Positions 3,261 through 7,834 of a DNA stretch of 64,000 nt are shown piece by piece. Made by a program: the position numbers and the translations under genes. The notes beneath the pieces are model-generated. The model saw only the letters and a list, made by a program, of their open reading frames with translations. It made no database searches and was not told where the DNA came from. Positions within the stretch are counted from its first letter, which is position 1. The number at the start of each line of letters is the position of its first letter. The stretch comes from Paludibacteraceae bacterium (GTDB taxonomy: Bacteria > Bacteroidota > Bacteroidia > Bacteroidales > Paludibacteraceae), in assembly GCA_017630395.1 (NCBI GenBank), contig JAGBVI010000099.1:24234-88233 (forward strand), read 5' to 3'.

Positions 3261-5624
3261 TTACCTTCCGTTTCTGCGACGTTCTCTCCTTTCTCTTCTT
3301 TTCTCCCTTCTGCTTTTGTTCTTGCTTGTAGTTGTGTCATTGTTGATACTATCTTTTTTATCCCTTCCGAAAAGTTTTTTCCAAAAGTTGACGAATCCTT
3401 CTCCAATATTTTTCTTCTCAAGCTCCTCGCAATTGTATGTTTTAGATATTTCTTGTTTCGGTTCTCCAAAAAGACCTTGATAGTGAGCAAGATTTTTATC
3501 CCTCATCACTCGACTCATGAAATCGCCAAATATGGGAAGTGCGGTCTGACTTCCTTGTCCGTGCGCACCATCGCGGAAGTGGATGCTGCGATATTCTCCT
3601 CCAACCCATACTCCTCCCACAAGTTTCGGTGAAATGCCCATATACCAAGCATCAGAATAGTTGGAAGAGGTTCCGGTTTTTCCTCCGTATTCTGTATTTT
3701 TGAAAATTGGATATTTTTTCAGACGTTGGGAGGTGCCATGTTCATCTCTCAATCCTTCTTGAAGCATATCTCGCATGATGAAAGCTGTTTCATAATCTAA
3801 TACTTTTTCATTTTCTCCTTGATTCTTGTAAAGAATATTCCCATCGCTATCTTCAATTCGTGTGACCAGGATTGGGGTATGTTTTTCTCCTTCATCAACA
3901 ATTATCGAGTAGGCTGTTACCATTTCAAGAAGAGAAACATCTTCTGCGCCTAGCCCAATGGAAGGAATCGGCCGAAGGTTGCTTTTTATTCCCATGGATT
4001 GGGCCAATTGAACGATGCTGTCCGGACTAAATTCTCGGGTTAATTGTACTGCAACACTATTAATTGAACGGGCAAATGCTGATTTTAGAGTTATCTCTTC
4101 GTTGGAGAAAGTTCGATTGGCATTTTGTGGCATCCAAATTTTTATTTCATCCTCCTCTTTTATGCTCCAATTGATTGCGCTATCCACTCGTGTGTCGCAA
4201 CTACATAGCCCCTTGCGAATAGCTTCTGTGTAGATAAACAATTTAAACGTAGAGCCAGGTTGTCTTTTGGCAACTACTTTGTCATATTGCCAATAATTGA
4301 AATCGACATCCCCAACCCACGCTTTGACCTTTCCTGTTTGTGGCTCCACAACCACAAAGCCACAGTGCAAAAATCGTAATGTGTATTTTAAGGAGTCTAT
4401 CGTACTCATTATAGTATCTTTCAGTCCGGTTTGATAATCAATTACTTTTGTGCGGTGAGGGCGATTTAGACATGCCATAATGGAGTCTGTGTTGCCACTG
4501 TATCGTTCTGAAAGAAGTTTATATTCAGGTAACTTTTTTACACGATCTTCTATAAAACCCTTCAATTCATGTTGATTTTCATCTCTCCATGGGTTTTTGT
4601 CGCCCCAATGTGAATTGAAATTATTTTGTACAATCTTCATTTGGGATTTAACCGCTTCTTCTGCATACTTTTGCATGCGAGAGTCGATGGAGGTATAAAT
4701 TTTCAATCCATCGCGATAGAGGTCTTTCCCATTCTCCTCGCACCATGATTGCATCTCATTAAATACCGCCTCTCGGAAGTAAAGAGCAATTCCTCGGTTG
4801 TCAGACGTGTTGTTGAGGTGAAGTCCTATTGGAAGTTGACAAAGCGAGTCACAAGTTTCCTTGTTAATTAGTCCTTCGTTATGTAGGTTGACAAGAATAT
4901 CATTTCTGCGCTTTTCACTATTTTCCGGATTCCGAATAGGATTGTAGTAGGTTGTTGCTTTTAGGATTCCAACCAAGGTGGCAGATTGTTGAAAGTTAAG
5001 TTTATCCGGAGATTGGTTGAAATAACTTTTGGCTGCAGCTTTGATTCCGTAGGAATGATTACCGAAATAGACTGTATTGATATACATCTGCAGAATTTCC
5101 TCTTTAGAATGCATCTCCTCTAATGTCATGGCACCTTTCCACTCTTTTACCTTTATTATGAATGTTCTAATACCGGGGATTTTACAAAATAGGCCGTTAG
5201 AGAATTCGGTTCGAGTTTTAAATAGATTTTTCACCAATTGTTGCGTAATTGTACTTGCTCCGCGAGCATTTCCCAGTAGAGCATCTTTGAATGCTCCGAA
5301 GAGACCTTTAAAATCTACTCCATTGTGCTCGTAGAAACGTTTATCTTCTGTTTTGATCAAAGTTTGGATAAACTCTTGTGAAATATTTTCCAAATCGACA
5401 GAGGATCGATTTTCGATAAAATATTTTCCTATCAACACGCCATCGTCACTATAGATTTCAGATGCCTCCATATTGATTGGATTTTTCAATTGTTCCCTTG
5501 TTGGAGAATCGCCAAACAGCCCTAAAAAATTGTGGTTGATGGCAATGATAAAAAAATATAGACCCAATATTATTGAGGCGAATCCGATTCCGATTTTAAT
5601 TGAAAGATTTTTATGTATTGACAT
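3261..5624 (-). CDS. Bifunctional class A penicillin-binding protein (PBP1A-like)
   Basis: Peptidoglycan glycosyltransferase/transpeptidase anchored in the inner membrane. The order is: a short cytoplasmic end, a membrane helix (about 8-30), a GT51 domain with TEDKRFYEHNGVD (Glu93 region) and GASTITQQLVKNLF (123-135), a linker, then a transpeptidase domain. The transpeptidase has the three penicillin-binding motifs: STFK (Ser458/Lys461), SIN (520-522) and KTG (648-650). At 787 residues it has normal length. The C-terminus ends in a very basic tail (roughly the last 25 residues, rich in R, K and E), an odd periplasmic extension. The gene is convergent with the MATE gene and appears monocistronic. 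Confidence 0.93.
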   Translation of the reverse strand: MSIHKNLSIKIGIGFASIILGLYFFIIAINHNFLGLFGDSPTREQLKNPINMEASEIYSDDGVLIGKYFIENRSSVDLENISQEFIQTLIKTEDKRFYEHNGVDFKGLFGAFKDALLGNARGASTITQQLVKNLFKTRTEFSNGLFCKIPGIRTFIIKVKEWKGAMTLEEMHSKEEILQMYINTVYFGNHSYGIKAAAKSYFNQSPDKLNFQQSATLVGILKATTYYNPIRNPENSEKRRNDILVNLHNEGLINKETCDSLCQLPIGLHLNNTSDNRGIALYFREAVFNEMQSWCEENGKDLYRDGLKIYTSIDSRMQKYAEEAVKSQMKIVQNNFNSHWGDKNPWRDENQHELKGFIEDRVKKLPEYKLLSERYSGNTDSIMACLNRPHRTKVIDYQTGLKDTIMSTIDSLKYTLRFLHCGFVVVEPQTGKVKAWVGDVDFNYWQYDKVVAKRQPGSTFKLFIYTEAIRKGLCSCDTRVDSAINWSIKEEDEIKIWMPQNANRTFSNEEITLKSAFARSINSVAVQLTREFSPDSIVQLAQSMGIKSNLRPIPSIGLGAEDVSLLEMVTAYSIIVDEGEKHTPILVTRIEDSDGNILYKNQGENEKVLDYETAFIMRDMLQEGLRDEHGTSQRLKKYPIFKNTEYGGKTGTSSNYSDAWYMGISPKLVGGVWVGGEYRSIHFRDGAHGQGSQTALPIFGDFMSRVMRDKNLAHYQGLFGEPKQEISKTYNCEELEKKNIGEGFVNFWKKLFGRDKKDSINNDTTTSKNKSRREKRRERRERRRNGR

Positions 5625-5972
5625 GAGTTATAATTCAAATAGATTAAAATTTCAGATTGCAAAAATAATGAAGATTCCTTTAATACAGGTAAGATTTTTA
5701 GTAAAACCTAGAATAGAATGAAGATATAGATAGGGAAATAGTAATGGTATTAAAATTACTATAGTTTCTAAAGTATTAAATTCAGATATTTATATAGATG
5801 GCAAAATTATTCATCATTCACAACTCGGAAAAATTTTGAATTATGGATGGTGAATGAATAAAACACTTATATTTCTATGCGAAACCGATTGAAAATGAAT
5901 GGGTAAATAAGGGGAAATAGGAGGAAAAAGGAGATTGAGGATTTAGTATGAAGTTTTTTTTTTGAAAAATTG
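5625..5972. other. Intergenic region between pbp1A and the trp leader
   Basis: About 350 bp of AT-rich sequence between divergent transcription units. A CAAAAATA string at 5660-5667 reads TATTTTTG on the minus strand and could be the -7 element for the penicillin-binding protein gene, but no good -33 element is visible at the right distance. I see no gene here. Confidence 0.4.
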
Positions 5973-6003
5973 TTGTGTATAAAAAAAGAGTGTTTTATAT
6001 TTG
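5973..6003 (+). promoter_or_regulatory. Bacteroidota-type promoter of the trp leader
   Basis: TTG at 5973-5975, a 20-base spacer, then TATATTTG at 5996-6003, matching the Bacteroidota primary sigma consensus (-33 TTG, -7 TAnnTTTG). The start of transcription would be near 6010, about 27 bases before the leader-peptide ATG. Confidence 0.75.
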
Positions 6004-6036
6004 CATCGTAAATCATTAAAGGCAAAAATAAAAGGT

Positions 6037-6087
6037 ATGCAAAAACTTAGAATTTCAAACAATTGGTGGTGGTGCGATTCAATCTAA
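6037..6087 (+). CDS. trpL: Tryptophan attenuator leader peptide (TrpL-type), 16 residues
   Basis: A 16-codon ORF reading MQKLRISNNWWWCDSI with three consecutive Trp codons at 6064-6072. It lies 34 bases downstream of a good promoter and is followed by mutually exclusive RNA hairpins and a terminator, then by trpB2. This is the classical arrangement for ribosome-mediated attenuation: scarcity of charged tRNA-Trp stalls the ribosome on the WWW codons. The peptide itself needs no function. Three Trp codons in a row in a 16-residue ORF directly upstream of a tryptophan synthase gene are very unlikely by chance. Confidence 0.88.
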   Translation: MQKLRISNNWWWCDSI

Positions 6088-6162
6088 ATTGGTGGATTCG
6101 CACGAGGTTCTAATGGCATATAAAAGATAAAACCGCAGGCATCCACCTGCGGTTATTTTTTT
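6064..6162 (+). promoter_or_regulatory. trp transcription attenuator: pause hairpin / antiterminator / terminator
   Basis: Stem 1-2 (pause, protects termination): GTGCGA at 6072-6077 pairs with TCGCAC at 6098-6103, and its 5' arm begins at the last Trp codon. Stem 2-3 (antiterminator): GGTGGAT at 6091-6097 pairs with ATCCACC at 6141-6147, and GGTT at about 6106-6109 can extend it against AACC at 6131-6134. Stem 3-4 is the terminator (listed separately). A ribosome stalled at 6064-6072 would mask the 5' arm of stem 1-2, free the 6091-6109 segment and block the terminator. Confidence 0.82.
6131..6162 (+). terminator. Intrinsic terminator of the trp attenuator
   Basis: AACCGCAGG at 6131-6139 pairs with CCTGCGGTT at 6146-6154, followed by ATTTTTTT to 6162. 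Perfect 9-bp GC-rich stem with a U tract. It lies between the leader peptide and trpB2. Confidence 0.9.
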
Positions 6163-6173
6163 GCCTTTAATTA

Positions 6174-6367
6174 AGAAGTCGTTTAAAATTTTATTGAATC
6201 TAAAGTAACGAAAAGTATAAAAAGTAAAATCGTGACTTCTTTGAGTGTCCTTTTGAGTGTTTTTACCTCTTAAAGTTGAGAATATAGGTTATTCTTGCTT
6301 TAAAAATTGTAAAATCCGTTCAAATACACTTCTTAAGGATTTTCAAGAAAGATTTTAAACAACTTCT
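6174..6367 (-). repeat. Family B dispersed repeat, divergent copy
   Basis: A 194-bp element bounded by AGAAGTCGTTTAAAAT at the left and the inverted GATTTTAAACAACTTCT at the right. The ends match the other family B copies at about 12.0, 21.5, 34.5 and 63.9 kb. The interior is diverged; reading it on the minus strand gives the better match (CAATAAAATTTTAAACGACTTCT end). It fills the space between the trp terminator and trpB2 and so lies inside the presumed trpB2 transcript. Confidence 0.65.
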
Positions 6368-6399
6368 AAAATTGTTAACTATTAGAAAAATAATAAAGT

Positions 6400-7764
6400 A
6401 TGGAAAGACAAAAAAGATTCTTTCTCGAAGAGAATGCTATTCCGAGACAATGGTACAACATTGTGGCTGACATGAAGACGAAGCCGTTGCCCATGTTGAA
6501 TCCGGTTACAAAGAAGCCGATGACATTGGATGATATGACACCGATATTCAATCGTGCATGTTCTGAACAAGAGTTAAATACAACAGATGCATGGATTGAT
6601 ATTCCTGAACAGGTGTATGAAATGTATAAAAATTATCGTTCAACACCTTTGGTTCGTGCATATGGTTTAGAGAAAGCTTTGGGAACTCCTGCTCATATCT
6701 ATTTTAAGAATGAGAGCGTTAGTCCTATTGGTTCTCATAAATTAAATTCAGCATTGGCTCAAGCCTACTATTGTAAGCAAGAGGGAGTGACAAATATAAC
6801 TACTGAGACAGGTGCTGGACAATGGGGGGCTGCCCTTTCTTATGCAGCGAGAGCTTTCGGGTTGGAATTGGCGGTGTTTATGGTAAAGGTGAGTTATGAA
6901 CAAAAACCTTATCGCCGTTCAATTATGCAAACGTTTGGAGCACAGGTGATTGCATCTCCAAGTATGAGTACAAAAGTGGGCCGAAAAATCTTGACAGAAA
7001 CTCCTAATTACAGAGGTAGTTTGGGAACTGCAATTTCAGAAGCAGTAGAATTGGCCATGCAAACTCCAAATTGTAAATATGTCTTAGGAAGTGTCTTAAA
7101 TCATGTTACATTGCATCAAACTATCATCGGTTTGGAGGCTGAGAAACAGATGGAGATGGCTGGTGAATATCCGGATGTCGTTATTGGTTGTTTTGGTGGT
7201 GGGTCTAATTTTGGTGGAATATCGTTCCCTTTTATGCGCCACACCATTATCGACGGGAAAGATACAAAATTTATTGCTGCAGAACCGGCGTCTTGTCCTA
7301 AATTAACAAGAGGTGTTTTTCAATATGACTTTGGTGATGAGGCCGGATTGACTCCTATGATGCCAATGTTTACTTTGGGTCATGATTTTGCGCCGGCTCA
7401 TATTCACGCAGGAGGATTGCGCTATCACGGGGCTGGTACAATTGTTAGTCAGTTGATAAAAGATGGTTACATGGAAGGTATGGATATTCCTCAATTAGAG
7501 AGTTTTCAGGCTGCAACATTATTTGCTCAATCAGAAGGAATTATACCTGCTCCTGAATCTGCACATGCTATTGCAGCTACCATCAGAGAGGCATTGAAAG
7601 CAAAAGAAGAAGGTGTGCAGAAGAATATTTTATTCTGCTTGTCCGGTCACGGGTTGATTGATATGACTGCATACGATCAGTACAATGCAGGAGATTTGAC
7701 CAATTATGATTTGCCGCAAGAGGTTATCGATCAAAATGTGGCTAAATTGGAAAAATTGGTTTAA
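6400..7764 (+). CDS. trpB: Tryptophan synthase beta chain, TrpB2 type
   Basis: PLP enzyme that condenses indole with serine to make tryptophan. At 454 residues it has the length and N-terminal extension of the TrpB2 subclass (classical TrpB is about 400). The PLP lysine lies in SPIGSHKLNSA (Lys114), the phosphate-binding loop in GCFGGGSNFGG, and TETGAGQWG is also conserved. TrpB2 proteins lack the TrpA interaction surface of TrpB1 and often occur without trpA; no other trp gene is in this window. The start at 6400 is the first ATG of the conserved reading frame. The upstream attenuator predicts induction when tryptophan is scarce. A rho-independent terminator follows. Confidence 0.92.
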   Translation: MERQKRFFLEENAIPRQWYNIVADMKTKPLPMLNPVTKKPMTLDDMTPIFNRACSEQELNTTDAWIDIPEQVYEMYKNYRSTPLVRAYGLEKALGTPAHIYFKNESVSPIGSHKLNSALAQAYYCKQEGVTNITTETGAGQWGAALSYAARAFGLELAVFMVKVSYEQKPYRRSIMQTFGAQVIASPSMSTKVGRKILTETPNYRGSLGTAISEAVELAMQTPNCKYVLGSVLNHVTLHQTIIGLEAEKQMEMAGEYPDVVIGCFGGGSNFGGISFPFMRHTIIDGKDTKFIAAEPASCPKLTRGVFQYDFGDEAGLTPMMPMFTLGHDFAPAHIHAGGLRYHGAGTIVSQLIKDGYMEGMDIPQLESFQAATLFAQSEGIIPAPESAHAIAATIREALKAKEEGVQKNILFCLSGHGLIDMTAYDQYNAGDLTNYDLPQEVIDQNVAKLEKLV

Positions 7765-7789
7765 GTTGCGCTAGTTTAGCTATTAAAAT

Positions 7790-7834
7790 AAAGAGACTGA
7801 GTTGGATTTCATTTTTTCTCAGTCTCTTTTTTTT
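7790..7834. terminator. Terminator between trpB2 and the convergent SDR gene
   Basis: AAAGAGACTGAG pairs with CTCAGTCTCTTT around a short AT loop, followed by a T run. The arms are flanked by A and T tracts, so it could serve both convergent genes. Confidence 0.88.

Follow-up and report, generated by a model that had tools for sequence, protein, structure and literature searches.

A putative ribosome-mediated tryptophan attenuator upstream of a stand-alone trpB2 gene in a Paludibacteraceae bacterium

Tryptophan leaders and second trpB genes

The logic of transcription attenuation and the occurrence of a tryptophan leader in Bacteroidetes are both already known, and what is new in the locus described here is the target, a presumed salvage gene, to which can be added a control device that outlives its operon, the frequency of the arrangement in the family and, in one of two architectures, a predicted pairing of the antiterminator with the loop of the terminator. 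In Escherichia coli, the leader of the trp operon (RF00513, Trp_leader) governs the full operon, which has TrpR as a second control, whereas the leader found in the window (the whole 64-kb stretch of DNA analysed) is predicted to govern a lone trpB2. The two leaders share the same four-region logic, but the E. coli antiterminator uses the 5′ arm of the terminator, while the putative antiterminator of the window uses the terminator loop and the 3′ arm, and the window reaches 20.4 bits with RF00513, under the 41-bit cut-off of that model.

The known tryptophan leader of Bacteroidetes is RF01692 (Bacteroid-trp; Weinberg et al. 2010, PMC2864571). Judging from the alignments of two of its matches, it has the same architecture as the trpB2 leaders, with an AUG, UGGUGG codons, a pause stem and the 5′ arm of a terminator. 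Matches at E ≤ 0.1 occur in 34 of 120 genomes of the family, 13 being over the cut-off, and a trpB1-like gene follows within 900 nt at 30 of the 35 matches in the family, whereas the window leader precedes trpB2. No RF01692 match, for which the cut-off is 49 bits, was obtained in the window at E ≤ 10 or in the window's genome at E ≤ 0.1 with stricter filters.

For Corynebacterium diphtheriae, too, a tryptophan attenuator has been predicted 5′ of an additional trpB, namely trpB2A; as presented there, however, this copy shares an operon with trpA, a separate trpB1EDGC operon also being present, and is not a stand-alone salvage gene (PMC1262725). With regard to the enzyme itself, TrpB2 of Thermotoga is reported to form tryptophan from indole, and TrpB2 of Bacteroides thetaiotaomicron (BT_RS23500) gave E. 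coli ΔtrpA a growth benefit only beside wild-type E. coli, which the authors read as indole cross-feeding; in both respects these enzymes resemble the product predicted here, and no attenuator is mentioned in the accessible portion of that text (PMC11535334). A literature search that covered mostly sources outside subscription revealed no report that we recognised in which attenuation is described for a stand-alone trpB2.

Anatomy of the leader and proposed mode of action

All the parts named in the initial annotation, that is, a promoter, a 16-codon ORF with three Trp codons, a pause hairpin, an antiterminator and a terminator with its T run, lie where it had placed them or no more than a few bases away, and the 5′ arm of the pause hairpin indeed starts inside the last Trp codon (Table 1). 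The promoter is of the type found in Bacteroidetes, whose consensus is TTTG/TAnnTTTG; it is absent from the output of a σ70 scan, a search that is uninformative here. Of 48 leaders (counting near-identical copies), 31 have TAnnTTTG 20-110 nt 5′ of the Trp codons, compared with 6% of mononucleotide shuffles. The 156-nt leader (6010-6165) folds with a z score of -5.6, none of 200 shuffles being as stable, and the two terminator-like sites in 5500-7800 both correspond to the leader palindrome, one per strand. The octamer ATTGGTGG occurs twice in the window, at 6062-6069 over the Trp codons and at 6088-6095 in region 2, both copies being able to pair with CCACC of the terminator; from this duplication it looks as if region 2 had originated by copying of the Trp codon run.

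Table 1. Features of the putative attenuator and of trpB2, in window positions
Feature	Position	Strand	Details and basis
Bacteroidetes-type promoter	5972..6003	+	GTTG 5972-5975, 20-nt spacer, -7 element TATATTTG 5996-6003; read directly
Leader peptide ORF	6037..6087	+	MQKLRISNNWWWCDSI, 16 codons + stop (6085-6087); unchanged in the sister genome (G120, locus L003)
Three consecutive Trp codons (control codons)	6064..6072	+	WWW; read directly
1:2 pause hairpin	6072..6103	+	GUGCGA 6072-6077 / UCGCAC 6098-6103; folds
Antiterminator 5′ arm (region 2)	6091..6097	+	GGTGGAT; read directly and swap test
Antiterminator 3′ arm	6141..6147	+	ATCCACC; terminator loop and start of terminator 3′ arm
Intrinsic terminator	6131..6162	+	Perfect 9-bp stem AACCGCAGG/CCTGCGGTT 6131-6154, directly followed by T run ATTTTTTT 6155-6162; read directly, covariation in 25 leaders
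Spacer between attenuator and trpB2	6163..6399	+	237 nt; shared with the sister genome
trpB2, TrpB-like PLP enzyme	6400..7764	+	454 aa; NF009057, TIGR01415; PALP domain PF00291
Terminator-like hairpin 3′ of trpB2	7790..7829	+	Read directly

The identity of the target as a stand-alone trpB2, proposed from the first reading of the DNA, is borne out by the scores of its product, which exceed the cut-offs of NF009057 (692.2 bits, cut-off 366) and TIGR01415 (593.1 bits, cut-off 518.85), while the match to canonical TrpB (TIGR00263, 143 bits) is far below the 392-bit cut-off. Since a terminator-like hairpin follows the gene, trpB2 is probably a single-gene unit.

Taken together, these parts very likely form an attenuator of transcription that works through the ribosome and makes trpB2 expression depend on charged tRNA-Trp. 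When charged tRNA-Trp is scarce, the leading ribosome would stall at the three UGG codons and open the pause hairpin, freeing GGUGGAU, which would pair with the nascent AUCCACC, so that the terminator could not nucleate and trpB2 would be transcribed. When charged tRNA-Trp is plentiful, the ribosome would reach the stop codon and cover GGUGGAU, whereupon the terminator would form and transcription would end. The reaction placed under this switch would be the salvage of environmental indole, in which indole and serine (or a serine derivative) give tryptophan. Stalling, termination and read-through in vivo, as well as the activity of TrpB2 in this organism, are what we infer from the parts and their order.

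The enterobacterial logic recognised by the initial annotation is thereby supported at the level of sequence, with the addition that region 2 pairs with the terminator loop and the first part of the 3′ arm instead of the 5′ arm. Folding with and without a masking ribosome, the check suggested at that stage, was carried out on the transcript as it lengthens, the edges of the ribosome being assumed. If the free RNA begins at 6086, as for a ribosome stalled at the Trp codons, the antiterminator is fully paired at 6147-6150, whereas if it begins at 6101, as for a ribosome at the stop codon, or if there is no ribosome at all, the terminator forms; E. coli trpL, taken as a control, behaves in the same manner. 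The equilibrium energies favour the terminator over the antiterminator even in the stalled state (-25.1 against -16.1 kcal/mol), and therefore the outcome has to be decided kinetically, while transcription proceeds, just as for E. coli trpL.

One point that speaks against the main reading is the spacer, which could be the site of a second promoter. At its 237 nt it is long enough to lend some colour to the idea that the hairpin merely ends a small RNA and that trpB2 is driven from within 6163-6399, and a permissive Rfam scan did return 11 matches, mostly to generic small RNAs that share the terminator, all of them under the cut-offs. On the other hand, the promoter is found immediately 5′ of the leader, the gene upstream of it lies on the opposite strand, homologues outside the sister pair place the leader terminator just 23 to 170 nt from trpB2 (leaving aside L054 and the mis-picked L210), and the spacer diverges more than the leader, all of which makes a small RNA most improbable. 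We retain attenuation as the preferred reading, the device being real, classical in its logic and probably working, with salvage probably turned up when tryptophan is short.

Homologous leaders and their two architectures

Homologous leaders were sought with a detector that requires a short ORF in which two Trp codons fall inside a stretch of five residues, and a terminator hairpin 30-150 nt downstream. Such a leader with a terminator precedes trpB2 at 49 of 159 loci (33 of 79 in the family, window included, and 16 of 80 in other Bacteroidales), the controls giving 6 in 795 dinucleotide shuffles and 5 in 159 reverse complements. The family loci derive from the 80 genomes with trpB2 among 120, G002 being left out because its trpB2 lies at the start of a contig, and the other 80 loci are the best 80 of 594 relatives, some of them near-identical to family loci. 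Among the 49 detections, L054 is taken as a chance match, and in L210 a wrong ORF was picked beside the right one; at the remaining 46 of the 79 family loci, no leader was detected 5′ of trpB2. Applied bare to both strands of the whole window, the detector yields nine matches, two of them being this terminator and seven lying elsewhere; the detector alone is therefore unspecific, and it is the position and the homologues that carry the claim. On these counts, the presence of a leader and terminator before trpB2 is more than chance.

Orthologous leaders devoid of Trp codons or stems had been named at the outset as evidence that would go against an attenuator. In the genus of the window, where trpB2 is found in 14 of 16 genomes, 12 of the 14 loci keep both the WW leader and the terminator, and in the other two no leader was found, the stretches examined upstream of trpB2 being 450 nt (G126) and 200 nt (G127). 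In L197 (G104) and L192 (G114), the terminator and region 2 are kept and, as judged by eye, one Trp codon is left (NNCWRHSC and NSWRRSFL, respectively), which is possibly a decay of sensing. Upstream of trpB2 at L010, a terminator-like hairpin is present in two almost identical copies in tandem (CTGCGGTTT...CCGCA, with T runs), and no Trp leader accompanies them.

The leaders were split by eye into two classes. In class I, to which the window belongs, two to four Trp codons stand side by side, and region 2 (for instance, AGGTGGAT or AGGAGGGT) pairs with the loop of the terminator and the first part of its 3′ arm. Class II carries mostly WRW and in some cases WWW, and its region 2 (for instance, GTAAACAATG), mostly located inside the leader ORF, pairs with the 5′ arm of the terminator, as in E. 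coli.

Alignment of the leaders had been proposed as a further check. TGGTGG columns are among the best conserved in 25 aligned leaders, and the terminator stem of class I (25 sequences) covaries, with 97.8% of the cells paired, changes on both sides in eight of nine pairs, and a covariation score equalled by none of 500 shuffles. The antiterminator, in contrast, does not rise significantly above shuffles on MAFFT columns (64.6% paired against 62.4%, a value reached by 91 of 500), a null result that we think is due to arms that are out of register, sliding between species. An alignment-free test that was added compared cognate with swapped combinations of region 2 and terminator. On average, cognate pairs beat cross-species swaps in class I (p = 4e-4) and in class II (p = 5e-5), a second run giving p = 5e-5 in both classes, which is the lowest value attainable with 20,000 permutations. 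Ranked individually, the cognate partner comes first for just 1 of 24 class I elements and 3 of 16 class II elements. These 24 and 16 elements, 40 of the 49, are those left after removal of the near-identical L003, L007, L117, L118, L119, L120, L138 and L200 and of the chance match L054, and the terminators of W, L195, L202 and L210 among them come from a simpler search. Of the features that define a classical attenuator, the short leader ORF with consecutive Trp codons is thus found here in a form kept in homologues, and the mutually exclusive antiterminator and intrinsic terminator are seen in the folds, the covariation of the terminator and the swap test.

A model built from 25 trpB2 leaders (R1) finds three trpB2 leaders outside its training set, although in genera inside it (G002, 70.8 bits; G104, 57.5 bits; G114, 48.9 bits). 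R1 also matches RF01692-type sites upstream of trpB1 weakly, up to 47 bits (47.2 in G022 and 46.1 in G079), three trpB2-linked RF01692 matches reach 31-34 bits, and, among 20 loci scanned, the trpB2 leader L065 of Dysgonomonas sp. 520 just attains the RF01692 cut-off (49.2 against 49 bits). The two kinds of leader are therefore similar and may be homologous. At low scores, R1 is unspecific, with matches in 99 of 120 genomes at E ≤ 0.05, and among nine inspected sites those with scores of 29 to 36 bits away from trp genes (L266-L269) are terminators without a clear Trp leader. A second Trp leader in the genome of the window was also considered and rejected on the two R1 matches examined out of four: the best is the window leader, and the runner-up among those listed (C113:143808, 26.7 bits) is a mere terminator in which Trp codons are missing. 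TGGTGGTGG alone proved uninformative as a marker, with 55 matches against 40 in the control.

Apparent loss of tryptophan synthesis and fate of the leader

The genome of the window (G000; 3.57 Mb, a draft of 128 contigs, 99.8% complete) gave no canonical TrpB (TrpB1) over the cut-off, no match to TrpA or to trpC (indole-glycerol-phosphate synthase), and none to one tryptophanase (tnaA) model. Its single chorismate-binding enzyme looks like an isochorismate synthase rather than a TrpE-like enzyme, scoring best with the former (206.6 bits, under the 224.75 cut-off) and at most 46.9 bits with TrpE models. In 14 named control genomes, the same searches recovered TrpB in all 14 (13 over the cut-off), TrpA, indole-glycerol-phosphate synthase and chorismate-binding enzymes in all 14, and tryptophanase in four; as befits a draft of 128 contigs, the absences are strong but not absolute. 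De novo tryptophan synthesis thus appears to be lost in this organism, and the suggestion of the initial annotation that TrpB2 is tuned independently of any full trp operon agrees with this search. Since none of trpA, trpC, canonical trpB (over its cut-off) and a TrpE-like enzyme was recovered, TrpB2 is probably the sole tryptophan-forming enzyme, fed by external indole, and the organism is predicted to be a tryptophan auxotroph able to make tryptophan only from that source.

The absence of the trp genes searched for, together with the single-Trp leaders of G104 and G114 and the lack of a leader in G126, is what one would expect if the attenuator were a relic, inherited from the time of a full trp operon and now decaying without selection. 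We regard this as hardly more probable than the small RNA considered above. Between the window and its sister, which likewise gave no TrpB1 match, the 203 positions of 5960-6162 contain five differences, all of them outside the leader ORF, region 2, the terminator and the T run, whereas 32 columns (about 28 of them real, four being one alignment-end artefact) differ in the 237-nt spacer. Moreover, among the 80 family genomes with trpB2, the leader is kept in 22 of the 32 without trpA, compared with 11 of the 48 with trpA (p = 7e-5). At a completeness of at least 90%, the figures are 12 of 19 against 10 of 40 (p = 0.009), and collapsed to genera they are 12 of 18 for trpA loss against 5 of 15 (p = 0.08); in these counts G002 is scored as leaderless, its trpB2 lying at a contig start, though a leader is present on a different contig, which breaks off at the beginning of a trpB2. 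The link between trpA loss and the leader is suggestive. Given that trpA-bearing species of the window genus carry the leader too, it probably predates the loss of trpA.

A further alternative concerns the enzyme. The NCBIfam family is named simply 'TrpB-like', and some archaeal TrpB2 enzymes use O-phosphoserine; TrpB2 might therefore carry out another PLP reaction, with the Trp leader merely sensing starvation. This is unlikely, if less so than the two preceding alternatives, because Trp control codons stand 5′ of trpB2 in genomes of many genera, and because TrpB2 of B. thetaiotaomicron, which we infer to be an orthologue of the window gene, supports growth read as indole-dependent (PMC11535334).

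With indole salvage as the preferred function, the control codons offer independent evidence that ties the loosely assigned TrpB2 family to tryptophan supply. We cautiously favour the broader view that, in many Bacteroidales, the lost de novo synthesis has been replaced as a regulated supply by attenuator-controlled indole salvage, the cell's own tRNA-Trp charging setting the uptake of its neighbours' indole through a leader that is similar to, but distinct from, that of the trp operon, with an antiterminator gripping the terminator loop. A control device of biosynthesis would in this way have outlived its pathway and would now serve a salvage gene, and its presence would predict which Bacteroidales live on cross-fed indole, many of them being gut and rumen species by their record titles. 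Since indole is a signal in the gut (PMC11085991), an indole sink tuned by starvation would be ecologically relevant.

Within the genus of the window, TrpB1 itself has a varied distribution. Four genomes other than that of the window gave no TrpB1 match (G120, 99% complete; G125, 93%; G123, 89%; G121, 88%), nine have both TrpB1 and TrpB2, and G027 and G074 have TrpB1 only. Two kinds of TrpB1 can be told apart (G027, G074, G091 and G113 against G054 and G103), one being about 36% identical to TrpB2 and adjoining trpA, the other about 30-33% identical and lying about 4.5 kb from trpA, which suggests a replacement of trp genes within the genus. Finally, L263 (G091:C4) and L264 (G027:C4) in the same genus possess a WW leader of their own (SLYWWRPSLFQSRR in L263) with a strong terminator about 5 kb upstream of trpB1-trpA, presumably the leader of the trp operon.
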